Shown: positions 22,662-42,415 of the stretch, piece by piece | Layout of the letters: each line of letters starts with the position of its first letter | Position numbering within the stretch: position 1 is the first letter of the stretch | Virus record (IMG/VR): IMGVR_UViG_3300046168_000001 | Span: 1 to 58,751 of that record | Direction: 5' to 3' (one strand) | DNA length: 58,751 bases | From: a virus | Notes under the pieces: generated by a model | What the model was told of the DNA's origin: nothing | Databases searched by the model: none | What the model saw: the letters and a program-made list of their open reading frames with translations, nothing else | Made by a program: the position numbers and the translations under genes

Positions 22662-24407
22662 ATGAGAAATGTAGAATACGCTGGACCAGTCACATCTATT
22701 TCTGAAGAGATTGATGCAATGAAGTATCGTCAAGAAGGTGAGTCCTTTGATGATAAAGTAAAACGCATGGCAGGAGCACTTAATGATACTCCTGAACATC
22801 AATTAGAACTAGAAGACATTTTTGGGAATATGAGATTTCTACCAGCAGGTAGAGTCCAAAATGCTATGGGAAGTAGGCGTATTACTACAGCTTTTAATTG
22901 TTTTGTTAGTGGTATTATTGATGACAATATGAAGTCTATAATGAAACGTGCTGCAGAAGCTGCAGAGACTATGCGTAAAGGTGGTGGTATTGGGTATGAT
23001 TTTAGTAGACTCAGACCAAGGGGCGATCATATTAACTCTCTCGACTCTCAGTCTTCTGGTCCTGTTTCTTTTATGGGGATCTTTGATGCAGTGTGCCAAA
23101 CAATTGCTTCTAGCGGTCACAGGAGAGGAGCACAAATGGGTGTCCTTAGGGTTGACCATCCTGATATACTCGACTTTATTCGCGCTAAACGTAACAGTGA
23201 TAAACTCACCGGATTTAATATCTCCGTTGGGATTACAGATGCCTTTATGGAAGCTTTGGATAACGATACCGAGTACGATCTTTTGTTTGACGGTGTTGTG
23301 CGTGGCACTTTATCAGCCCAAATGGTATGGGACGAGATAATGAACTCGACCTGGGATTGGGCAGAGCCTGGAGTTCTGTTTATTGACCGTATACAAGAGA
23401 TGAATAACTTATGGTACTGTGAGACCATTGAAGCCACTAACCCATGTGGTGAGCAGCCGTTGCCCCCGCAAGGTGCATGTTTGTTAGGTTCTTTTAATTT
23501 AGTAAAGTATCTTGATGAAAGTGCTGGTAACTATACATTTAATTTTACACAGTTTAAGAAAGACATTCCACATGTAGTACGTGCAATGGATAACATTATT
23601 GATCGTACTATATACCCGCTTAAAGAACAGTCTGATGAGGCTAAAGATAAAAGACGTATGGGGCTAGGTGTTACTGCACTAGCTAACGCTGGTGAGCTTC
23701 TAGGATACCCTTATGCTTCTCCTGAGTTTCTTAACTGGACTGAAAAAGTCTTTGCTTGTTTAAGAGACAATTGTTATAAAGCATCTGCTTTGTTAGCAAA
23801 AGAAAAAGGTGCATTCCCTATGTATCGTCCAGAGTATTTAAAGTCTAACTTTGTACGTACATTACCTGCATCTGTTAAGAAGGAGATTAGAGAACATGGC
23901 ATACGCAACAGCCACCTCACTAGTATTGCTCCTACTGGTACTATCAGCCTTGTGGCAGATAATGTCACTGGTGGCATAGAGCCTGTATTCAGCCATTACT
24001 ATGATCGTACTATCCAGACATTTGAAGGACCCCGTGTTGAACGTGTAGAAGACTATGCGTACTCTAGAGGGGTAGAAGGGAGGACATCATCTGATATTTC
24101 AGTTCAAGATCATTTAGCAGTATTGCTGTTGTCTCAACACTATATTGACTCAGCATGTTCTAAAACTTGTAATGTGGGGGAAGATGTGTCATATGAGGAT
24201 TTTAAACAAGTGTATGTTGATGCCTGGAAGGGCGGGGCGAAGGGATGCACTACGTTCAGGATCAGTGGAAAACGATTTGGTATCTTCAACGAAACCGTGG
24301 AAACGGAAGAGAAGGTATCTGGCACGAATGAGGAAATGGTTGAAGAAAAGGGAAAGGTTGAAGCTTGCTTCATCGACCCGCTTACAGGCCAGAAAGAGTG
24401 CGCTTAG
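22662..24407 (+). CDS. nrdJ: Cobalamin-dependent (class II) ribonucleotide reductase
   Basis: 581 aa. Converts ribonucleotides to deoxyribonucleotides for phage DNA synthesis, using adenosylcobalamin to make the active-site thiyl radical. C80 (FNCFVSG) and C273 (GACLLGSF) are the substrate-reducing pair. C262 in the NPCGEQPLP motif, with N260 and E264, carries the radical. The C-terminal CFIDPLTGQKEC provides the redox-shuttle cysteines (C569, C580). There is no ATP-cone. The length matches the compact phage class II enzymes I recall from roseophage SIO1 relatives. It implies a host that makes or imports B12. It is placed among structural genes behind its own promoter. Confidence 0.92.
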   Translation: MRNVEYAGPVTSISEEIDAMKYRQEGESFDDKVKRMAGALNDTPEHQLELEDIFGNMRFLPAGRVQNAMGSRRITTAFNCFVSGIIDDNMKSIMKRAAEAAETMRKGGGIGYDFSRLRPRGDHINSLDSQSSGPVSFMGIFDAVCQTIASSGHRRGAQMGVLRVDHPDILDFIRAKRNSDKLTGFNISVGITDAFMEALDNDTEYDLLFDGVVRGTLSAQMVWDEIMNSTWDWAEPGVLFIDRIQEMNNLWYCETIEATNPCGEQPLPPQGACLLGSFNLVKYLDESAGNYTFNFTQFKKDIPHVVRAMDNIIDRTIYPLKEQSDEAKDKRRMGLGVTALANAGELLGYPYASPEFLNWTEKVFACLRDNCYKASALLAKEKGAFPMYRPEYLKSNFVRTLPASVKKEIREHGIRNSHLTSIAPTGTISLVADNVTGGIEPVFSHYYDRTIQTFEGPRVERVEDYAYSRGVEGRTSSDISVQDHLAVLLLSQHYIDSACSKTCNVGEDVSYEDFKQVYVDAWKGGAKGCTTFRISGKRFGIFNETVETEEKVSGTNEEMVEEKGKVEACFIDPLTGQKECA

Positions 24408-30427: not shown

Positions 30428-31693
30428 ATGTCAATACCCTATCAACCAACTTTTAAGTTGCAACCTAAAACAGGTTTCCGGTATGCTTCACAACCTTTTG
30501 TACCACCAACACAACCAATTAATGCACCCCCTCCTCTTGGACTAGACGGGAGTGGTGCTGCTCCTCCACCTGTTATGGGAGCACAACAAGGTCCTGCTTA
30601 TGCTAATGACCCTTTTGGTGGTGGTGATAATCAGTTTCAAGCAAATTATAAACCTGCTGCTCAAAGCTTAGGGTACACACAGGGTACACAAAACCCAATG
30701 AATATGCTCCGAGGGGTTCCAGTTTTAGGGACAGCTATGAGTGCTATGGGTGCTTTTGATAATTTACCAGATCAAACCTATGGTACTTACGGAACTTATG
30801 ATAACTCTGGTAATGTGTTTGGTAGAGAGGGTCGTGCTTATAATCCAGTTACTGGTCGAGCCGCACAATCTTATGCAAAACCAAGTGACTGGTATGGAAG
30901 TTGGCTTGGAATTGGCACACCTGAAGGACTTGGTGGTTCTAGTAGTAGCTATGGTAAACTTAGAGCAGCAGGAGAAGGGCCAATTCAATCTGCATTAGGT
31001 AGTTATGAAAACTCTCTTTATAGACAGCAAGAGTTAAACCCTAATCTTAACACAGCACAAGCAAGAGCCGCAATGTTAAGAGGAACTGCAGACGCTAGTG
31101 GTGTTCCAACTATGCAAGGAGTAATAGAAGCTAATACTGCAATGTATGATCCAGCATATGCAGCAGCACAGGGTTTTGCAGATGACGATTTAGATCGTAT
31201 GGGTGGAACTGAAGTTACTAAAGAAATGTTAGGTTTTACAGATGCAAGACCTGATCCTGGCAAAATCAGTGGCAGGTTTGGAACTCAAGCTGGAGATGTA
31301 GCCCGTACTCAAATGGGTCTTGGAGTTATAAATCAATCAGGGCAAATAGAAACACCTACTGGAACTGTTGTTGCTATAAGTGATCCATATAATCCTGGAA
31401 AAAATATTTCATTGTTAGGAAGTACTCTTAACTCAACTGATGGTCGCTCAACTTTAAGCGCACAAAACGAATTAGCAAGAAACCAAGCATTAGATGCTCG
31501 TGCTAACCCAGAAGGTTCGGGTATGTCTGGCTTTAATGTTAGTGACGGAGATGGCGGTAGTTATCAAACAAGCTCTACAGGAGCTTCAAAAGGTATGGGC
31601 AGTCAAGCAGGACAAACTATTTACGGCATGGAAGATGAGTATGATGATCCTCCCCCTACTACTAATGATGATAATAATTCAGGAGGTAAATGA
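30428..31693 (+). CDS. Internal virion protein, Gly/Ser/Pro-rich
   Basis: 421 aa with low-complexity Pro/Gly segments at the start (PPPLGLDGSGAAPPPVMGAQ), Ala/Asn-rich helices in the middle, and an acidic Asp-rich end (MEDEYDDPPPTTNDDNNSG). No catalytic motif seen. Position inside the ejection-protein block implies a virion protein. Overlaps the next gene by 4 nt. Confidence 0.55.
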   Translation: MSIPYQPTFKLQPKTGFRYASQPFVPPTQPINAPPPLGLDGSGAAPPPVMGAQQGPAYANDPFGGGDNQFQANYKPAAQSLGYTQGTQNPMNMLRGVPVLGTAMSAMGAFDNLPDQTYGTYGTYDNSGNVFGREGRAYNPVTGRAAQSYAKPSDWYGSWLGIGTPEGLGGSSSSYGKLRAAGEGPIQSALGSYENSLYRQQELNPNLNTAQARAAMLRGTADASGVPTMQGVIEANTAMYDPAYAAAQGFADDDLDRMGGTEVTKEMLGFTDARPDPGKISGRFGTQAGDVARTQMGLGVINQSGQIETPTGTVVAISDPYNPGKNISLLGSTLNSTDGRSTLSAQNELARNQALDARANPEGSGMSGFNVSDGDGGSYQTSSTGASKGMGSQAGQTIYGMEDEYDDPPPTTNDDNNSGGK

Positions 31694-34600
31694 TGAAGCT
31701 TAAAAGTTTTACAAACAAAGATCGTTACGGCAACATGACCTCCTTTGAGTTTTATGAAGATTCAAATGTACCTATGATGGAAGGTATACCTGATCATCCA
31801 GGGAACCCTAAAGGCACTGACACAGTACCTGCATGGCTAACCCCTGGTGAGTTTGTAATGAACGCTGAAGCTACTCGTATGTTTGAGCCACAGATAGAAC
31901 AGATGAACAATGTTGGTCGTGCTGTACAGGCAAAACAAGGGGGTACAATCCCTGAGTATTCTGCACACGGTGGCCCTGTGTATATGGAGACAGGTGGTTT
32001 CTTAGACAAACTATTAGGGATGTTTACTAGCAGTTCAAATGAACCTACTAGAACAGCTAAAGAAGTTTTTGATGAAAGAATTCCTGCTCTTCAAAATAAA
32101 ACTAACCCCCCAACCCCTACAAGACCAGATCCGTTTATATCTAATAAGATGTATATGGATTTTCTTAAAGACAAAGAAGGGTTTCGTAATGAAGCTTATC
32201 TTGACTCTGCAGGTGTCCCAACAATTGGTTATGGGTTTACTGAAGGTGTTAAGATGGGTGACACTATTTCTGAAGAAGAAGCTAATAAAAGACTTCTTAG
32301 AGAAATGGCTAGGACCGATCAAGATTATAACAATCTTGTTTCAGCTGATCTTAATCCTAACCAACAAGCTGCTGTTAAATCATTACTATATAATATTGGT
32401 GGTCCACAGTTTGAAGTTAGTAAAGCTCGTGCTGCTCTTAATTCAGGTGACTTTGAAACCTTTAAGAAAGAAGCTGCAGAGTTTCGAATGGCTGATGGTA
32501 AGGTAATCCCAGGATTAGAAAACCGTAGGCGTGATGAGCTAGAGTTGTTCTTTAAGCCTTATAGTTCTTCTAAAGATGACTCTGATGATTATGGCGATGA
32601 TACTGCTTTGTCAGGGCCTGAAATACTTAAACAAATAGTAGATAGAGAAACCGGACCTGTTGATCCAAATGCTCCAGATATGCCTGTAGATCCAGGACTT
32701 CTTGCTGCAGTTGAAGCACAAAAAGCACAGGTCCCGCCAATGGATGGTGTTCCTCCAAAGGGTAAACCAGTAGGGGAAGGTAATAAATTTGATATCGATG
32801 GCGATGGATTTCTTTCAAAAGAAGAACTGTTAGCTGCAAGAAATCAAATGATTCCAAGTAAGGATAATGTTAAAGGAAGTGCATCTACACCTCTTAACAT
32901 TATGCCATCAGGTAATCAAATAGTTATCCAAGGCCCAGACTCTCTTATTGCTAGACAAGAGCAAATACTTCAAGATATGATTGCTGCTAATGCACCACCA
33001 TCTGAAATTTATGCTCAACAACAAAAGATTGATCGTATTAATAATATAGCTCCTAGACAAGAAGCTTTTTCTAATGTTGTAAAAGCACAAAATAAAGTAG
33101 AACCAATTAATAATCAAATAGAAGATCTTGAAACTCAAATCCAAAGGCTTGAAGCAGCAGGATTATATGACAGAGCAAATTCATTACGTTCAGAAGTAGC
33201 AAATCTTAAAGCAGAAAAACCAAAACTACAAGCAGAACTAGATGCAGCTAATGCTGCTCAAGATGATTTGTATAGAGATGCAACCTTAAGCGATGGTACT
33301 GTTATCCCTGATGTAGGAAAAGTTACTGCTGATCAACTTGAAGGGGATGGAACTATTCCTCCTCCTCCACTTGATCTAGAAGGTGGTGTAGCGCAAGGCA
33401 TGGATGATGTTCCTGCAATAAATGAGCCTCCTAAACCAGAAGAAAAATCTTCTGCAACATCTGTAACAGGGATGGATAATGAATACGATGAAGAGTTAGA
33501 TTCTACAACTCAAACTATAATTGATCGTATTATTGCTGATGAAAACTTTAAGGATGATGGAACAACATCTGGTCAAACTGAAAACAGTGCTATTAAAACT
33601 GGAGAAAATGCTGATCCTAAAGATGTAAGCAAAGCTGAGTCTTTCTTATCAGATATCTTTGGTGACCTTTTTGATAAAGACGAACTTAAACGTATGGCTA
33701 TTATGTATGTTGGTTCTCGCATGATGGGTGGATCTCATAACGGCTCTATGAACTTTGCTGCTAAACAATACGTATCACGTGTTGATAAGAAAGTAGCGAC
33801 TAAAAAAGCTGAAGAGAAAGCCTTAGCTGAAGAAAAGCGTCTTGATAAAAAGGCATTAGCTAAAGAGCGTAGGCAACTAGTTGATGATCTTATTAAAGCA
33901 GATAAAAGAACACCAGAATCAATTTCTGCTTTTGAAAAATCTGGTGACGCTAGAGATCTTGTAACTAAACCTGTTCTTACTAAACCTCCTACTTCTACAG
34001 GTAAAACTTTTACTTTTTACGATAAAGGTGGAAGAGGTAAAGTTACTGCTTTACAAATGAAAGATGATAATGGAAACATCTTTTATGTAAACTCTCAAGG
34101 TAAACAGCTTAATCCTTTTGCTTTTCATCAAGATCCATCTTTGGTTCCAAACACTCCAGAGTATGAGGATAGAGAATTAAAAATTAGTAAACAAATGAGT
34201 GATTCTCTTGAAGACTTAATTAAACGAGATACTGTTGTAGTTAATGGTAAGGAAGTAAAACCTGTTGGGTTTGCTACTGGATCTCAGGGTATGGAAGTAG
34301 CTCGTTGGATGAACAGAAATAAAATACCTGCAAACTACATGGGTAGTATTCTTGAATCCGCATATGCAGCTGCTGCAGCAGAACAGAAAGCAACTGGTAA
34401 TAAGGTTACTAACATTACTTCATATCTTGACAAAGCGTTTATTGATCGTATCCCAGGGAATGAAGGTATCTTTACACGTGAAGATGGAGAGCGTGTTGAC
34501 TCTGGAAAGGTAATGAACCTGATTGGTCAAGGTGTTTCTATCCTCAGGTCTAAACCTGGGCAAGAAAGCAAGTCTGATGAACAACTTCAGAATGATATGC

Positions 34601-34740
34601 TTGCTGCAATGCGTAAAGAATGGTTTGCTCTTGATGATAAAGTCCGTGGTGAATATAACACCAAGGGTACTAATGAGGGTGAAACAGGCTTTATGGTATT
34701 TATGCAACAGCAGATTGCTGAAGATGTAAAACAATCTTAA
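31690..34740 (+). CDS. Virion-associated lysozyme (GH24) with EF-hand, ejected internal protein
   Basis: 1016 aa. About residues 43-60 carry DTVPAWLTPGEFVMNAEA, a motif common in phage tape-measure/internal proteins. A GH24 domain follows at about 150-290, with E163, D172 and T178 in the exact T4-lysozyme spacing (DKEGF, YLDSAG, PTIGYGF). A canonical 12-residue EF-hand calcium loop lies at 368-379 (DIDGDGFLSKEE). Next come coiled coils (about 450-540) and a basic helical region near 690-740. It probably opens peptidoglycan during DNA ejection, like the lytic part of T7 gp16. The second of two tandem ATGs (31693) has the better spacing from AGGAGG. Confidence 0.85.
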   Translation: MMKLKSFTNKDRYGNMTSFEFYEDSNVPMMEGIPDHPGNPKGTDTVPAWLTPGEFVMNAEATRMFEPQIEQMNNVGRAVQAKQGGTIPEYSAHGGPVYMETGGFLDKLLGMFTSSSNEPTRTAKEVFDERIPALQNKTNPPTPTRPDPFISNKMYMDFLKDKEGFRNEAYLDSAGVPTIGYGFTEGVKMGDTISEEEANKRLLREMARTDQDYNNLVSADLNPNQQAAVKSLLYNIGGPQFEVSKARAALNSGDFETFKKEAAEFRMADGKVIPGLENRRRDELELFFKPYSSSKDDSDDYGDDTALSGPEILKQIVDRETGPVDPNAPDMPVDPGLLAAVEAQKAQVPPMDGVPPKGKPVGEGNKFDIDGDGFLSKEELLAARNQMIPSKDNVKGSASTPLNIMPSGNQIVIQGPDSLIARQEQILQDMIAANAPPSEIYAQQQKIDRINNIAPRQEAFSNVVKAQNKVEPINNQIEDLETQIQRLEAAGLYDRANSLRSEVANLKAEKPKLQAELDAANAAQDDLYRDATLSDGTVIPDVGKVTADQLEGDGTIPPPPLDLEGGVAQGMDDVPAINEPPKPEEKSSATSVTGMDNEYDEELDSTTQTIIDRIIADENFKDDGTTSGQTENSAIKTGENADPKDVSKAESFLSDIFGDLFDKDELKRMAIMYVGSRMMGGSHNGSMNFAAKQYVSRVDKKVATKKAEEKALAEEKRLDKKALAKERRQLVDDLIKADKRTPESISAFEKSGDARDLVTKPVLTKPPTSTGKTFTFYDKGGRGKVTALQMKDDNGNIFYVNSQGKQLNPFAFHQDPSLVPNTPEYEDRELKISKQMSDSLEDLIKRDTVVVNGKEVKPVGFATGSQGMEVARWMNRNKIPANYMGSILESAYAAAAAEQKATGNKVTNITSYLDKAFIDRIPGNEGIFTREDGERVDSGKVMNLIGQGVSILRSKPGQESKSDEQLQNDMLAAMRKEWFALDDKVRGEYNTKGTNEGETGFMVFMQQQIAEDVKQS

Positions 34741-34758
34741 CATAGTAAGGAGAATAGT

Positions 34759-37700
34759 ATGTCAATATTCGATAGGATTGCTGAGAAACCTTCTAATTTT
34801 ATTGAAGGAACTAACATGTCCCTTTTGGATGGAGATACTGCTGTAGATAACGACACTGGTGAAAAATACAGACTTGCCAGTGTCGATACTGCAGAGATTG
34901 ATCGCTATGTTGGTGGTGAGTTTCAGGCAGGTACTGCAGGTGGTTCAACATCAACAGCGGAAGTCTCTAAACTTATGAATGAGTTTGGATATAATAATGT
35001 AAAGCCTAGACTAGATGAGAATGGAGAGATCTTAAGAGACCCAAATGGTCGTATCATTGCTGACTTTGTTAATGATCAAGGTGAAACATTTTCTAGTCGC
35101 TTACTATCTGAGGGTGTTCTTAAACCTACAAAGTGGTCTTCTAATATTGAAGCAGATATCTATCAACTTGGTCAACTTAGAAGGGATCAAAAGAATCTTC
35201 AAGAGATGGATCTTGAAAATGCACCTACTGAATCTTCATGGGATCTTGCTCGTACAAACATTGAAGAAGCCATGCGTAAAGAGGGCTTCCGTCAGTATGG
35301 TTTAAAGAAAGTTGCCCACAATGAAGAAGAACTAGCTCGTGCTCAAGCGTCTGGTGTGTCTAGTTACTATGACATGAACAGGGTTGCAAGCAGAGCTAAG
35401 GATAGGACACTTCTTAATGAAGCCCTTAACCCTTATTCTGATTCATGGGAACAGGCTTGGATTGGTGTAGATGAAGCTATGGCTGGCCTTCAAAACATGT
35501 GGGGTGATCTTACAGATAACGAATATCATTCCCGTGTAGGCAAGATGGGTGTTGAACGTAATCGCAGAAGACTTGCAGAGTATGCCACTCGTATTGTTGA
35601 TTGGCGTGATGTGGACGATATCTCTAGTGGTATTGATTACGTTGTTAACAATGCTGCTATGTCTCTCCCATACATGATGATTGCTGCAGGATCTGCTTTA
35701 GCTGCTCCTCTTGTAGGAACCGCTGCAGGTGTTGCTGGTGCAGGTGCTGCTGTAACAGGTGCTGTAACGCTAGGGGCTAGTATGCTTGCACCCTCTGCAA
35801 TTTATGCAGGTCAAACTTATAATGAAATGGAAGGTGAAAAGAATATTGGTGTTGCTGTAACTTCTGGTATTCTACAAGGTACTCTTGATCGTATTGGTGT
35901 TGGTCTTATATTTAAAACTGGTACACCAACTAAAGAAGTTCTTAACAAAGCCTTAAAAGAATTAACAAAACCTGTAGCAAAAGGTGGTAAAGGATTAACT
36001 CTTGAAGCTGCACAAGATCTATTATCTAATGCTAGTAAAAAGACTATTGCTGATTTTACCAAAGATGCTGCTAATGCTGCTAGGTCACAACTTACAGGTA
36101 AGGCTATCTTTAAAGATTTAGCAACTCGTGGAATTATTGGTGGTGCTGGTGAGGCAGTCACTGAAGGACTTCAAGAAGCCACTGCATACACTGCAGCTAC
36201 TCTTGGTTCTGATAAGGTCTTTGACTATAATGAACTTACAGACAGGATGATTGATGGTGCTATTGCAGGTGGTGTTCTTGGTACATCTTTTTCAGCCCCA
36301 GGAGCCGCTGTTAACGCAGGGATCTGGGCAGACATTGCAGTACGTCAAGCACCAGCAGACGCTAAAAGGTTGTCTGATGCTGGTCGATACGCTGAAGAAG
36401 AACGTGCTAGAAGTTCTGATAATCGTATTATTTCTATTGAAGAAGGATTAGATAATATATATGATGGTACTCAACCAACTGAAACTGTAGATCGTGAAAC
36501 AGGAGAAATAACAGAGTATGATGGTAACTATTTTGAACCCTTAGACATACGAGAACAAGAACACAAGGGTAAAAAGGTAGACCGTAGCATTGGGCAATCA
36601 ATTGCTGCAGGATTAGCTAAACTTCCTAAGTTTTGGAGAGGCTCTGTTAATTACTTATTTCCTGATGAGGTTCTTGATAAGTCAAGGTCTGCTAGATTTC
36701 TAAAAGAAGCAATGGGTGGTGGTCTTCAAAAAGTATTTAGTGGTAATGGATTTGAAAACTTTAAGTTTAACCTAGTAGCCACATATAAAAACATGGTTCC
36801 AGAGCCATCAAGTTTTTACAGTATTTGGAATGATGGTAAAATGTCCAGTGCTACAAGAAGAAAAGAAATAAGTAATGAAATATATTCTATTCTTCGTAGT
36901 GCAATTAACAATGAAACAAAAACATTCGATCCTTCTGTAATTGAAAACATGACTTTACCACAACATAAAAAGCAAGCACTTATTCTTTTAGGTTCTCAAA
37001 TGAATGAGATGTCTGATACAATGTACACAGATCAGAATAAATATGTAAAACGTGAAGGTAAGGGAAAAGAGCTTGGTTATGTTGATAACTATCTTTTAAG
37101 ATTTAAATCTCTTGATAAGGTAGCTATTAAAAAGAATCGTGCAGGTTTTGAAGCAGCCCTACAACAAGAGGCTAACCTTAGTGTTCCTCAAGCTAAAGAA
37201 CTAACTGATCAGATTTTAGATAATCCTGAGGTAAATGATCTTAGTTTACTTGATGATAGTTTTTCTGTCACTAAAGGGGGTATTGTTCCTACAGCACATA
37301 GAGAAAGGACTCTTGGGTTGTCTGAAAGGGATGCTTTTAATGAGTTTATGGAGCAAGACATCTTTGCTAACATGTCTACTGCTGCTAAGTCTGCTGCACG
37401 TTTTGTAACACATCGTAAATACATTGGTAAGAATGGTGAAATGCTAGCAGCACAATTACAACAGATGGAAAATGAGGGTGTTCCTAGAGAAAAAGTAAAT
37501 GAAATAGCTATGGGCCTTAAAGATTTTCTAGATGCTGAATCAGGAAACTATAAACGTCCAACAAGCAAAGACGGTAAGCTAGCAGTTGGAATCCAAAAGA
37601 ATCTTATGTTTGTTACAACAATAGCAACTCTAGGTCTTGCCACAGTAGCTTCTATTGTAGAGCTTGCGTTAGCAGGTCGTGCTCTTACGGCAGAACAAAT

Positions 37701-38871
37701 ATATGGTCGTAAGGGGGCTACGTCTGGTGATACAAGCTTAGCGTCTTTTGGTAAAGAATTAGCAAAGGTTATTTCAGATGCTGTTAGGTTTGCAGGGAAT
37801 ACTGCTGTTCTTAAAGATCCAGGAGTAACCAGTGAGTCACGTGGTCAAGAACTGATACGTAGTCTTGGTTATTATGAATGGGATGTTGGTGCTGCTACAG
37901 TTACTGGTGTTACAGAAATGAACCCAGTGCATGAAAAGTACTATAAGTTGTTCTTTAAAATGACAGGTCTTACAGGTTGGACAAATATGACTCGTGCTAT
38001 TCGTGGGTCTATCGCTGCTGATTATATGTTTGATCACACAAAAACTATAGCTGAAGCTAGAGAAACGGGTTTGCCTAAAACCAATGAAGTTCAAGAAGCA
38101 GAAGAAGCTTTAAGAAACATTGGTGTAAACGTTGATGATGCTGTAGAAGTCTATCGTGCAGATCAAAGGGCAGGACCTAATGAACTTCTGTCTCCAGAGT
38201 TAGAGGCAAAACGTGAAGCTAATATGAGAACAGGTGCATTTAATTTTATTAATGACGCTGTTGCTTTACCTATGGTGGCTAACAGACCAATGATCTATCA
38301 AGACCCAAGGTTTGCTTTGTTCACACAGTTTCAAGGATTTATTGCTACATTTACAGCTAATCATATCCCTAAGTTATGGGGTGAGTATGTTAAACGTGGT
38401 ACTCCTTCAATGAAGTACAATGCTTTTGCTATTATGTGTACAATGATTATGCTTGGATTTGCATCTCAATATCTTAAAGACTTGATTAAGTTTGGAGATA
38501 GAGATGAAGATGAATTGAAAACACTTGGTAATCCATACCTTGATACAGGTGAGTATGTCCAACGTGGTATACGTGCGTCTGGATTGATGGGTGTTGGAGA
38601 ACGTGTCTTTGATCAGTTCTTTCCTTTGTATGAACAAAGGTCTGATAATGCATTAGAGTGGGCTTGGAATACAGTAAGTGGTGAAGCACCTGCTGCAGGA
38701 ACAGTTAAACGTGTTGCAAAGACATTAACTAATCTCGGCACTGGTGATTTTGGTGGTGCTGCTCAACAGGCAAGTAAACTAGTTCCGTTTATTGGTATCG
38801 TTGGTGGTGCTGAAAGACTTTCAAACTTATACGATTGGGATTATAAAGGGGAAGAGAATGGCAGTAATTAG
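34759..38871 (+). CDS. Giant internal virion protein with N-terminal staphylococcal-nuclease-like domain
   Basis: 1370 aa. Residues about 20-125 align with the SNase/thermonuclease fold: DGDT (D26), YRLASVDTAEID (R38, D43, T44, E46) and PNGRIIADF (R98). All fall in the spacing of SNase D21, R35, D40, T41, E43 and R87, and RLLSEGVLKP matches its final helix. Next are helices, a Gly/Ala-rich hydrophobic region (about 300-350) that could cross a membrane, a long middle, and another hydrophobic stretch near 1215-1240. Size and place correspond to T7 gp16-type ejection proteins. An ejected nuclease domain could attack host DNA, but activity is unproven. AAGGAG upstream. Confidence 0.8.
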   Translation: MSIFDRIAEKPSNFIEGTNMSLLDGDTAVDNDTGEKYRLASVDTAEIDRYVGGEFQAGTAGGSTSTAEVSKLMNEFGYNNVKPRLDENGEILRDPNGRIIADFVNDQGETFSSRLLSEGVLKPTKWSSNIEADIYQLGQLRRDQKNLQEMDLENAPTESSWDLARTNIEEAMRKEGFRQYGLKKVAHNEEELARAQASGVSSYYDMNRVASRAKDRTLLNEALNPYSDSWEQAWIGVDEAMAGLQNMWGDLTDNEYHSRVGKMGVERNRRRLAEYATRIVDWRDVDDISSGIDYVVNNAAMSLPYMMIAAGSALAAPLVGTAAGVAGAGAAVTGAVTLGASMLAPSAIYAGQTYNEMEGEKNIGVAVTSGILQGTLDRIGVGLIFKTGTPTKEVLNKALKELTKPVAKGGKGLTLEAAQDLLSNASKKTIADFTKDAANAARSQLTGKAIFKDLATRGIIGGAGEAVTEGLQEATAYTAATLGSDKVFDYNELTDRMIDGAIAGGVLGTSFSAPGAAVNAGIWADIAVRQAPADAKRLSDAGRYAEEERARSSDNRIISIEEGLDNIYDGTQPTETVDRETGEITEYDGNYFEPLDIREQEHKGKKVDRSIGQSIAAGLAKLPKFWRGSVNYLFPDEVLDKSRSARFLKEAMGGGLQKVFSGNGFENFKFNLVATYKNMVPEPSSFYSIWNDGKMSSATRRKEISNEIYSILRSAINNETKTFDPSVIENMTLPQHKKQALILLGSQMNEMSDTMYTDQNKYVKREGKGKELGYVDNYLLRFKSLDKVAIKKNRAGFEAALQQEANLSVPQAKELTDQILDNPEVNDLSLLDDSFSVTKGGIVPTAHRERTLGLSERDAFNEFMEQDIFANMSTAAKSAARFVTHRKYIGKNGEMLAAQLQQMENEGVPREKVNEIAMGLKDFLDAESGNYKRPTSKDGKLAVGIQKNLMFVTTIATLGLATVASIVELALAGRALTAEQIYGRKGATSGDTSLASFGKELAKVISDAVRFAGNTAVLKDPGVTSESRGQELIRSLGYYEWDVGAATVTGVTEMNPVHEKYYKLFFKMTGLTGWTNMTRAIRGSIAADYMFDHTKTIAEARETGLPKTNEVQEAEEALRNIGVNVDDAVEVYRADQRAGPNELLSPELEAKREANMRTGAFNFINDAVALPMVANRPMIYQDPRFALFTQFQGFIATFTANHIPKLWGEYVKRGTPSMKYNAFAIMCTMIMLGFASQYLKDLIKFGDRDEDELKTLGNPYLDTGEYVQRGIRASGLMGVGERVFDQFFPLYEQRSDNALEWAWNTVSGEAPAAGTVKRVAKTLTNLGTGDFGGAAQQASKLVPFIGIVGGAERLSNLYDWDYKGEENGSN

Positions 38872-41800
38872 AGGTGCTCCAAGCACAACACAAAAAGCTG
38901 TAGAGAAACTACAAGAAAGTATGGTAACTGCAGCCCCTGAAGTAGATCCTAAGATGGTACAGCAAGAAGGGGAGGCTCCGGTCTCTCCTACTTCTGGAAG
39001 TATTTTTGATAGGATTGCTGCACAACCTGTGGCTGAGGCTACACAAGACAACGTAGAACAACAAGCAGAGCAAGTAGGTGAACAAGTACAAGAGGCTGTA
39101 GTAGAGGGATCTCCTGTAGCCCCTGAACTTGCTGCTATTGCAACTGCTGAGTTAGAGTCCAACCCTAAACGTCTTAATCAAAAACAACTAGAACGGGCTG
39201 AAGCAAAAAAGAATATTGTTAAACCGCTTAATGAACGTACTAAAGAAGATTCAGGTCAGTGGTTTTATAATGCTGTTATAGCAGAAGATGCTGCTTCGGA
39301 TGTAACATCTGGGCCTATGTCAGACGGTGGCCTTATAGCTCGTGCTAGGAATTTGTCTAATGGTGTTTATGGTGGTACAGCTTCTCAAGTTCAAGCTGAA
39401 ATCGAACAAAACGGTAAACCTCCAAATGGGCTGTTTGGTATTGCTGGATTAACAGAAGCAGCGACAAACAATGTTGCTCTTAATGTTTTAGAACGTCTTA
39501 ATGCTGTAGATAGAAATGCTGGTAAACCAACAAGAGATTTTCTTCAAACAATGTCTGTTGTTGCTGAAGATACTATTTCACAACTATCATTTAGTGAGCC
39601 GACATCTCTTGATATAAACCCTGGAGAAACTGCTATCAATGATGATGGTGAAGTTCAAAACGTAACAGAAGAAGAGATAGCCCAATCGACACCCTTTTCA
39701 AAAGCTAAAGCCAATCGTGATTTAGGAACACGAATAAGCAGAGAGTTCCAAAGGTTGCGTAATAAAGCAGAGGGTAGGCCAACAGATGAATACCAAGACA
39801 TAAGCGCAGATGAGGCTATTGCTCTTGGAGATATGGCAAAGGAGTTATATTGGGCAGCAAATAAAACTGTTGATGGTAAAAACTTTCTTGTAAGACAAAA
39901 AGCAAATGATGGTCAAGTGTATTTTACTTTAACCAAACATGGTTCTGATATGCTAAAGCAAGGGGCAGCTAGACGTAAACGCATGTTCCCTGGAAAACAA
40001 GTAAGGACACAAAAGAATTCAGGTGTAAAACTTACAGGTGAAGCAGAAAAAGCTACTCGTAAAGTGTCTTCTAGAGCAGGTCGTCTTACAGGAACCCAAG
40101 AGCTTAATCAAGCAATGGCTAATCTAAACAAGGTAGCTAACGTTGTTGATCCTCGTAGGCTTAAGATTCTATATCTTACAGCACTCCCTGTGTTACTTGG
40201 ACAAGCGGCCCCTGATACTCTTTATGCATCTCTAAATCATGTTGGTCAAGATAAATTAAATAAGTTTCTAGCTAAGGCTGCTGCTAAAACAGGAAGCCCA
40301 ACAGAACAAGAGACTGCAAACGCAACACAAGAATATAATGATTTAATAAATGATTTGGCTCAAGACTTGCGTGGTATTGCCTTAGAGCGTAAGGGGGCTA
40401 ATTACCTTACATATTATGTTCAAGCATTCAATACTCGCATTGCTCCGCAACAATCCACTCTTGATCCTACAACATCTAAAACTGCTAGGTTTGTAACTCG
40501 TAATGCTAAACCTTCATTGGTAGATTCAAAGACAGGAACGGGAAGACGTATTGAACGTAACCTTCGACAGATGTATGCTATGCATCTTGTAAAAGGGGCG
40601 GGGCCTAAGTTTCCAGCAGAAAGAGAAAGTATGCTAGAGATTGCTACACCACAACTAGTTAAGTGGGGCATATCCTTACGGGCTGCTCTTGATGGTGTAC
40701 CTGATTCTAAAATTGAAGAAATATCTCAAGCTATTGAAGATGGGATTTCAGTTAATGATCCAAATTTTCCACAGATCCCACAGCTACCTTCTGATTTAGA
40801 TCCAGAGTTGTTAGAAACGATTAAGAAACAAGGGGAAGATGGTCAAGCATATATTGATGGACTTATTGACTTTGCAAATTATTATGAAGTAAAGACTCGT
40901 GCTGCTTCGGATAAATTAGCAGGTAGGTCAGACGGTAACTATCAGTTTCCTTCTTTCTTTAATGCGTATATGGATGGTAAGACTAATGGTCTAGCATCTA
41001 ATGGTATGCAAATGGGATCTATGTCTGTTGCTCAAAGAACAGGTGTACTAAGAAGTCAAAACACTTCTGCTATTGATAATAATGAAGACATACGTGACGA
41101 GTTAGCAAACCTTTTATTAGCTAGTTTAGATGATGGATTTGATGGGCATACAGGTGAAGTTGGTGATTACTTGCATAATATTGCAACTGAAGTGTTTAGT
41201 ATTCGTGCATTGAATAAGGCCACCACCATGACGTTTGGTTATGGGAAAGAATTAAATTCTTTTAAACGTGACATTCGTGAATACTTAGATCTTATGGAAC
41301 AAGAAAAAGCAGCAGAAGGATCTAACTATAATGAGGTAGCATTAGCTGTTGAAGCCCTTACGTCTGATACTAAAGATGGAAGAGATGCCTTGGTTGAAAT
41401 ACTTCATGCTAAGTATGTACCATCTCTTGTTCAGGTTCTTGACAAGAGGGCCTTGCAGTCTCGTAATATTATGCGTGGGGCTGCTATGCTTCATGCTCTT
41501 TCTAATGAGTTGTTTACTATTGAATCTCCTACAGGGACTTCTCTTAATCTTGGTGGATCTGCTACTACAGGATACATTGAGGGAGATGCTTACAAGGTTT
41601 GGTCTGATGGTAAATATAGCTTAAGAAAGGTAGGGCGTTTTGGAGATGAACTAACTGCAGCTGCTCCAAGGCTTATGGATGACGTAAGTGTTCCTGGAGA
41701 AAGGGCGTATGGTGGATCTGTACCAGCCCCTGTTCAATCTCTAGATGCTGCTACGGTCATTCGTACAGCTAGTGGGAAGTCTTGGTCTAGGCTTGAAGCA

Positions 41801-42415
41801 GCTTCTGGTGGTGCTCCATATCTTCATACTATCTATGATGCCTTTAAGGTTGATGCTATGGGATATGATGTTGTATTTGAAGAAGTCAATCAAAACTGGT
41901 TAGATTTAAATATGCAGTGGTCATATCTTGAAAAGACTTCTGATGCATTAAACAATCTTAGATCTAAGTTTGCTGAAAGATACAGTGGACGAGACCCTAA
42001 TGATGTTCTTACAGCAAACGAATGGAGCATGGCTGGATACCTTTTAGAACAAACAAAAGTAGAAGGTAAGTCAATAAGCTCAAACCTTATGAATAAACTT
42101 TCTAAGGTGCTTGATCTACCCGTGGTTGATAAGAATAATAAACTTATTGAAAAACATCCAGAAGTAGAGGAAGCTACAAAGCGAATTGAAGACGCTATGA
42201 TTGCTGCTGGTTATAACCCTAAAAGCCCACCTGCACAACCTACTGTGCGACACATAAGGGCTTTTGTTCAGGCGTTTAGTAAAGAACTAAACATGCAAGG
42301 CAGACTTAATAAGATGATTGCAGAGACTAACAGAGATAAGGCTGTTCTCAAATCTGAAATAGAAAAGCAGATTTCAGACGGTAACTTTGGTGTGGCCCAA
42401 TATATGGATCACTAA
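38858..42415 (+). CDS. Giant internal virion protein 2
   Basis: 1185 aa from the ATG at 38858 (GGGGAAGAG upstream); an upstream in-frame extension would run deep into the previous gene. Mostly helical with no enzymatic motif recognised. Residues about 50 onward read GSIFDRIAAQPVAEA, repeating the MSIFDRIAEKPSNF start of the preceding protein. Long Ala/Glu-rich helices (e.g. EQQAEQVGEQVQEAV) fill the N-terminus. The last gene of the plus-strand unit, 14 nt before the bidirectional terminator. Likely part of the ejectosome. Confidence 0.7.
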   Translation: MAVIRGAPSTTQKAVEKLQESMVTAAPEVDPKMVQQEGEAPVSPTSGSIFDRIAAQPVAEATQDNVEQQAEQVGEQVQEAVVEGSPVAPELAAIATAELESNPKRLNQKQLERAEAKKNIVKPLNERTKEDSGQWFYNAVIAEDAASDVTSGPMSDGGLIARARNLSNGVYGGTASQVQAEIEQNGKPPNGLFGIAGLTEAATNNVALNVLERLNAVDRNAGKPTRDFLQTMSVVAEDTISQLSFSEPTSLDINPGETAINDDGEVQNVTEEEIAQSTPFSKAKANRDLGTRISREFQRLRNKAEGRPTDEYQDISADEAIALGDMAKELYWAANKTVDGKNFLVRQKANDGQVYFTLTKHGSDMLKQGAARRKRMFPGKQVRTQKNSGVKLTGEAEKATRKVSSRAGRLTGTQELNQAMANLNKVANVVDPRRLKILYLTALPVLLGQAAPDTLYASLNHVGQDKLNKFLAKAAAKTGSPTEQETANATQEYNDLINDLAQDLRGIALERKGANYLTYYVQAFNTRIAPQQSTLDPTTSKTARFVTRNAKPSLVDSKTGTGRRIERNLRQMYAMHLVKGAGPKFPAERESMLEIATPQLVKWGISLRAALDGVPDSKIEEISQAIEDGISVNDPNFPQIPQLPSDLDPELLETIKKQGEDGQAYIDGLIDFANYYEVKTRAASDKLAGRSDGNYQFPSFFNAYMDGKTNGLASNGMQMGSMSVAQRTGVLRSQNTSAIDNNEDIRDELANLLLASLDDGFDGHTGEVGDYLHNIATEVFSIRALNKATTMTFGYGKELNSFKRDIREYLDLMEQEKAAEGSNYNEVALAVEALTSDTKDGRDALVEILHAKYVPSLVQVLDKRALQSRNIMRGAAMLHALSNELFTIESPTGTSLNLGGSATTGYIEGDAYKVWSDGKYSLRKVGRFGDELTAAAPRLMDDVSVPGERAYGGSVPAPVQSLDAATVIRTASGKSWSRLEAASGGAPYLHTIYDAFKVDAMGYDVVFEEVNQNWLDLNMQWSYLEKTSDALNNLRSKFAERYSGRDPNDVLTANEWSMAGYLLEQTKVEGKSISSNLMNKLSKVLDLPVVDKNNKLIEKHPEVEEATKRIEDAMIAAGYNPKSPPAQPTVRHIRAFVQAFSKELNMQGRLNKMIAETNRDKAVLKSEIEKQISDGNFGVAQYMDH

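Follow-up and report, generated by a model that had tools for sequence, protein, structure and literature searches.

A divergent staphylococcal nuclease-type domain on a probable ejected virion protein of CRP-7-type marine podoviruses

Analysis of the virus record IMGVR_UViG_3300046168_000001, all 58,751 bases of which make up the window studied here, revealed a staphylococcal nuclease (SNase)-type domain at the front of a 1370-residue protein (P0001, positions 34759-38871) encoded among the virion genes. Sequence profiles and a predicted structure identify residues 17-143 of this protein as a genuine though divergent domain of the SNase superfamily. We propose, with a probability of about 0.6, that the domain has an intact catalytic set, is fixed on a virion protein of the marine podoviruses typified by Roseobacter phage CRP-7, and is ejected as a metal-dependent nuclease at entry. 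A preliminary description made from the window alone had located an SNase-like domain at the N-terminus of a large protein in the virion block, and fold, profiles and conservation now agree on this point. The open reading frame (ORF) has the length and coordinates given there and contains D26, R38, D43, T44, E46 and R98 as listed; D24 and the aromatic residue at position 126, discussed below, were absent from that list.

Two scans of viral_contigs retrieved around 80 loci with full-length or near-full-length relatives of the 1370-residue protein, and 64 distinct N-termini taken from these, with that of the window included, were aligned. Searched against PDB sequences, the profile of this family retrieved staphylococcal nuclease (1eqv) as its top match over the full domain (E 0.0098), and hhalign aligned the family with four plasmid thermonucleases at a probability of 96% (E 3e-9), with the D, R, D, E and R residues in register. 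Scans of individual members pointed in the same direction: PF00565 was the commonest Pfam family, with weak matches in 9 of 54 (best E 0.0079), and in NCBIfam the thermonuclease NucI matched 13 members (best E 1.4e-7) and the calcium-activated nuclease EcnA matched 10. With an independent profile of 31 alphaproteobacterial SNase proteins, the window domain reached 20.7 bits (E 1.1e-5 for Z=1000), 44 of the 54 members were recovered at E<1e-3, and all but one of the 54 scored above the best shuffled sequence (3.4 bits).

The predicted structure led to the same superfamily. An AlphaFold2 model of the window domain, computed together with its relatives, had a predicted local distance difference test score (pLDDT) of 80.6 and showed its elements in the SNase order (beta-beta-beta / alpha / beta / beta / alpha / alpha). 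The top 50 PDB chains retrieved by Foldseek were all SNase apart from one Tudor-SN entry, and VIA-align superposed model residues 17-143 with a Z of 9.6 and 3.3 Å over 111 residues. When viral models were searched by fold, the best match was a protein of 1368 residues, as long as CRP-7 gp34, and annotated viral nucleases came next. The predicted fold, on which the preliminary description had staked its claim, is therefore SNase by model, Foldseek and VIA alike.

Conservation is concentrated in the presumed active site. D24, D26, R38, E46 and R98, the counterparts of SNase D19, D21, R35, E43 and R87, are invariant in all 64 N-termini, in a family with a mean column identity of 34%. The 7 invariant columns of the domain include 5 of the 6 SNase key positions (hypergeometric p 4.5e-7). 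Position 126, near SNase Y115, is aromatic (W, Y or F) in 60 sequences. The position of D43, equivalent to the SNase calcium ligand D40, carries Asp in 36 sequences, including those of the window and CRP-7, with Ser in 12, Glu in 9, Asn in 5, Thr in 1 and Gln in 1; a side-chain oxygen is present in all 64. On a tree of the C-terminal part of the protein, this position switched between Asp and other residues 8 times, 6 of these switches being forced by well-supported branches. The presence of a side-chain oxygen in every replacement would fit an altered metal site. The acidic and arginine residues are thus conserved as the preliminary description had anticipated, save at D43, where the D40 ligand is Asp in the window but S, E, N, T or Q in 28 relatives; its term 'calcium-dependent' is a supposition. 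Because Asp occupies the D43 position in only 36 of the 64, we consider calcium dependence to be the weak part of the nuclease claim. The spacing of R38-x4-D43-T-x-E46 is exactly that of SNase R35, D40, T41 and E43. The remaining spacings, which had been said to agree as well, fit only with loop changes: 12 residues rather than 14 separate D26 from R38, and 52 rather than 44 separate E46 from R98. Among the alphaproteobacterial SNase homologues, L120, L125, L126, L128 and L134 have GIQ or GIQAPK in place of GIDAPE; they have lost D40, and also E43 where the motif is readable, and are probably inactive.

The rest of the protein suggests a structural role in the virion. Its C-terminal half matches the virion structural family phrog_6958, and hydrophobic segments lie at residues 307-332 and 948-976. 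Distant homologues of this half occur in Pseudomonas phages, including JB8 (XKC23876) and CRPAP1904 (XNX25874); SNase was not found in these two proteins by hhalign or Pfam. The SNase-carrying family is widespread in marine viromes and the fusion is fixed throughout it. A viral_contigs scan with the N-terminal domain alone returned near-identical loci only, and this exact domain was not seen as a separate phage protein. The cultured member of the family is CRP-7 (MK613349), a phage of a Roseobacter RCA strain, cultured on FZCC0042, and a podovirus by electron microscopy (PMC6918029). Its gp34, annotated as hypothetical, resembles the window protein over its full length and in the domain, key residues and gene order; a text search of the CRP-7 paper (PMC6918029) found no word starting with 'nuclease'. 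Relatives of the carrier protein were also seen in contigs binned to metagenome-assembled genomes of Dehalococcoidia, Pelagibacter and Bacteroidetes (L102, L103 and L104), which are most likely misbinned phage contigs.

Compared with the SNase/thermonuclease superfamily (PF00565; NucI, EcnA; 1eqv, 1snc), the window domain shares the fold, the order of elements, the equivalents of D19, D21, R35, E43 and R87 and the aromatic residue near Y115. It differs in its low identity (~20%), in a longer E43-R87 segment, in the relaxed D40 position of its relatives and in being fused to a virion protein, whereas the known enzymes are secreted or free-standing. An SNase domain on a virion protein does have a precedent in BtI1, a homologue of the baseplate-hub protein gp147 of Bacillus phage 0305phi8-36, which has an N-terminal SNase-related domain whose use its authors call obscure (PMC2147016). 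There, SNase occupies the place of the cell-wall-degrading domain of the sister phage. Unlike the window protein, BtI1 is a baseplate-hub protein of a different, baseplate-bearing lineage and comes from a draft bacterial chromosome. The fusion, which according to the preliminary description is not known from described podoviruses, is therefore not wholly unprecedented. For podoviruses themselves, we found no description of an SNase, thermonuclease or micrococcal-nuclease domain on an ejected protein in a literature covered in part, which is weak evidence of absence. The protein had also been likened to T7 gp16. Both are large late podovirus proteins with an N-terminal enzyme and a position in the virion block, and the analogy of place stands. 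The gp16 enzyme, however, is a peptidoglycan hydrolase (transglycosylase), whereas the hydrolase of the window lies in the upstream gene, and hhalign found no homology of the carrier to gp16 (family against gp16, probability 0.2%).

Table 1. Position of the SNase-domain gene, its key residues and the adjoining genes in the window
Feature	Position	Strand	Remarks
SNase-domain protein (P0001), probable ejected/internal virion protein	34759-38871	+	1370 residues, ATG start; full-length homologues in ~80 viral contigs
Ribosome-binding site AAGGAG	34747-34752	+	6 nt 5' of ATG; read from sequence
SNase-like domain, residues 17-143	34807-35187	+	AlphaFold2 model, fold searches, hhalign, bacterial SNase profile
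D24-x-D26 (SNase D19, D21)	34828-34836	+	Invariant, 64/64
R38 (SNase catalytic R35)	34870-34872	+	Invariant, 64/64
D43-T-A-E46 (SNase D40, T41, E43)	34885-34896	+	D43 Asp in 36/64; E46 64/64
R98 (SNase catalytic R87)	35050-35052	+	Invariant, 64/64
W126 (~SNase Y115, nucleotide-stacking position)	35134-35136	+	Aromatic in 60/64; register from hhalign
C-terminal 1227 residues, virion-structural family	35188-38868	+	phrog_6958 at residues 871-1252
Upstream 1016-residue virion-type protein	31690-34740	+	Phage lysozyme, residues 161-283; weak EF-hand match, 365-383
Downstream 1185-residue single-subunit RNA polymerase, probable virion RNA polymerase	38858-42415	+	AlphaFold2 model, fold matches, motifs A, B and C
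T7-type RNA polymerase encoded separately in the replication block, 772 residues	42730-45048	-	phrog_414, E 3.4e-101

The plus strand of the window encodes terminase, portal, scaffold, major head protein and tail genes, and the minus strand a T7-type RNA polymerase, primase/helicase, exonuclease and DNA polymerase (Table 1). Immediately upstream of the SNase gene, the phage lysozyme domain corresponds to positions 32170-32538. The hydrolase at this position is swapped among relatives, being a lysozyme, a tail lysozyme or SLT (for example in L005, L021, L022 and L047); four of the nine relatives tested had no recognised hydrolase in the upstream protein, and gp35 of CRP-7 gave a weak match to a pesticin-type lysozyme. 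The same upstream protein of the window contains a single EF-hand-like calcium motif at 32782-32838, below the Pfam cut-off. A ribonucleotide reductase gene (22662-24407) lies within the structural block of the window. In CRP-7 the B12-dependent reductase is annotated as two ORFs (gp44 and gp46) flanking a small ORF, which suggests an intervening element.

The protein encoded downstream of the SNase gene matches the RNA polymerase family phrog_414 only weakly by sequence (E 9e-4, and up to 3.7e-7 in a relative), and an hmmsearch of its family against PDB sequences gave chance matches only; its identity was therefore settled by fold comparison. Foldseek matched its AlphaFold2 model (pLDDT 77.9) to single-subunit RNA polymerases with E 2.4e-14, and VIA gave Z values of 27 to T7 RNA polymerase and 23.7 to the N4 mini-vRNAP. 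The motif residues D706-G-x-T-x-G, K787-x3-M791-x3-Y795-G796 and D994 were invariant in 30 of 30 sequences, and the residue before the final G of motif A was N or H, with one S, giving an N4-like DG-x-T-[NH]-G. On the strength of the modelled fold, the downstream protein is a single-subunit RNA polymerase. Because the replication block already encodes a T7-type enzyme, it is most simply read as a virion RNA polymerase, which its gene position suggests is probably packaged. It resembles the N4 virion RNA polymerase gp50 in its single-subunit fold, its motif A and its location among virion genes, but is far shorter (1185 against ~3500 residues) and has no significant hhalign match to gp50 beyond motif A. 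We regard it as likely to be a virion RNA polymerase of compact form that belongs to a new phage group. The order of large upstream protein, SNase protein and polymerase-type protein is kept in CRP-7, in which the last is gp33, annotated as hypothetical, and most loci have a long downstream ORF at the polymerase position. No description of an RNA polymerase at this position in CRP-7-type phages was found in the part of the literature covered.

Within the ORFs of the window, the heptapeptide SIFDRIA has exactly two occurrences: one opens the SNase protein (34762) and the other lies in the N-terminal, disordered part of the downstream polymerase (38999). The N-terminus of N4 gp50 (L091), MSVFDRLA, resembles it, and a looser form starts 8 of 82 relatives of the SNase protein; the repeat could be a packaging tag or due to chance.

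The fold, the homology, the conserved residues, the fixed fusion and the order of the genes are results of the analysis. From the gene context we infer that the 1370-residue protein is most probably carried in the particle and ejected from it; its catalytic activity, compartment and target are likewise proposals. At infection, it would be ejected together with the neighbouring lysozyme protein and RNA polymerase. These three proteins would leave the particle first, with the hydrolase opening the wall, the 1370-residue protein spanning or entering the envelope and the co-ejected polymerase starting transcription on the entering DNA. Once ejected and refolded, the SNase domain would cleave nucleic acid as a metal-dependent phosphodiesterase, either within the cell envelope or at the site of entry. 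Candidate targets would be incoming DNA of competing phages, nucleic acid in the envelope or outside the cell and, if the cytoplasm were reached, host DNA or RNA; degradation in the envelope, for instance of rival-phage DNA, is the leading idea. The envelope is favoured over the cytoplasm because classical SNase requires millimolar Ca2+, and divalent ions are plentiful at the envelope and entry site. More tentatively, the three genes may form an entry kit composed of a peptidoglycan hydrolase, an active SNase-type nuclease on a channel-type protein and a compact virion RNA polymerase, in which the nuclease would stay inactive until ejection and then act on rival phage DNA or host nucleic acid.

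Several points weigh against an ejected nuclease. As a single query, the window protein matched no SNase in Pfam, PHROGs, PDB or NCBIfam, with noise only (Imm61, fungal lectin), which is why routine annotation misses the domain. Its sequence also falls below the Pfam (PF00565) and NCBIfam cut-offs; since the Pfam curated cut-off is missed, we name it a divergent SNase-fold homologue rather than a Pfam-grade member. The active-site loop, residues 41-60, which holds D43 and E46, is poorly modelled (pLDDT 50-58), and for this reason no claim is made on the geometry of the site. Calcium use may be altered, given the 28 relatives without Asp at D43. Free Ca2+ is low in the cytoplasm, and a Ca2+-dependent nuclease carried beside the genome in calcium-rich seawater would put the phage's own DNA at risk if it were not restrained. 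Finally, packaging, ejection and nuclease activity rest on inference rather than direct evidence. The failure of the single window sequence to match anything relevant in Pfam, PDB or NCBIfam would also suit a chance or convergent resemblance with no SNase domain at all, an explanation to which we give almost no weight, as it is in practice refuted by the fold search, by profile comparisons made in three independent ways and by a catalytic set that never varies.

An active nuclease packaged beside the genome would be hazardous, a difficulty that would disappear if the module only bound DNA through its OB (oligonucleotide/oligosaccharide-binding) fold, anchoring the ejection protein to the genome or guiding the leading DNA end without cleavage. 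OB folds commonly bind nucleic acids, the aromatic residue at 126 is retained in 60 of 64 sequences and the D40 position is relaxed in 28. Pure binding, however, needs neither E46 nor both arginines, and the equivalents of R35, E43, R87 and D21 are constant in 64 divergent sequences, when degenerate bacterial SNase homologues drop E43 and D40 and such loss is evidently easy; we consider binding alone rather unlikely. Slightly less credible still is an active nuclease directed at RNA or host DNA in the cytoplasm, which would take part in early take-over together with the polymerase delivered with it. SNase enzymes do cleave both DNA and RNA, and the adjoining gene encodes a single-subunit RNA polymerase with the fold and motifs of virion-type polymerases, but cytoplasmic free Ca2+ is too low for classical SNase and passage of the N-terminal domain across the inner membrane is without support. 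The location of the gene within the structural block, beside other virion-type proteins, would also agree with a role during assembly in the producing cell, such as DNA trimming or scaffolding at packaging, as assembly roles are common among virion proteins. We regard this as improbable: a peptidoglycan hydrolase and an RNA polymerase adjoin in the same block, which is the layout of known ejected sets, and the phage encodes its own terminase and exonuclease.

Where ejected phage proteins carry an enzyme domain, it usually cuts the cell wall. Here the domain would be a nuclease, fixed across a broad marine phage group, and this raises the question of how a phage carries a nuclease beside its own DNA, and for what. 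The compact RNA polymerase encoded next to it points to a further phage group, with CRP-7 as a cultured member, that may bring its own transcription machinery into the cell.

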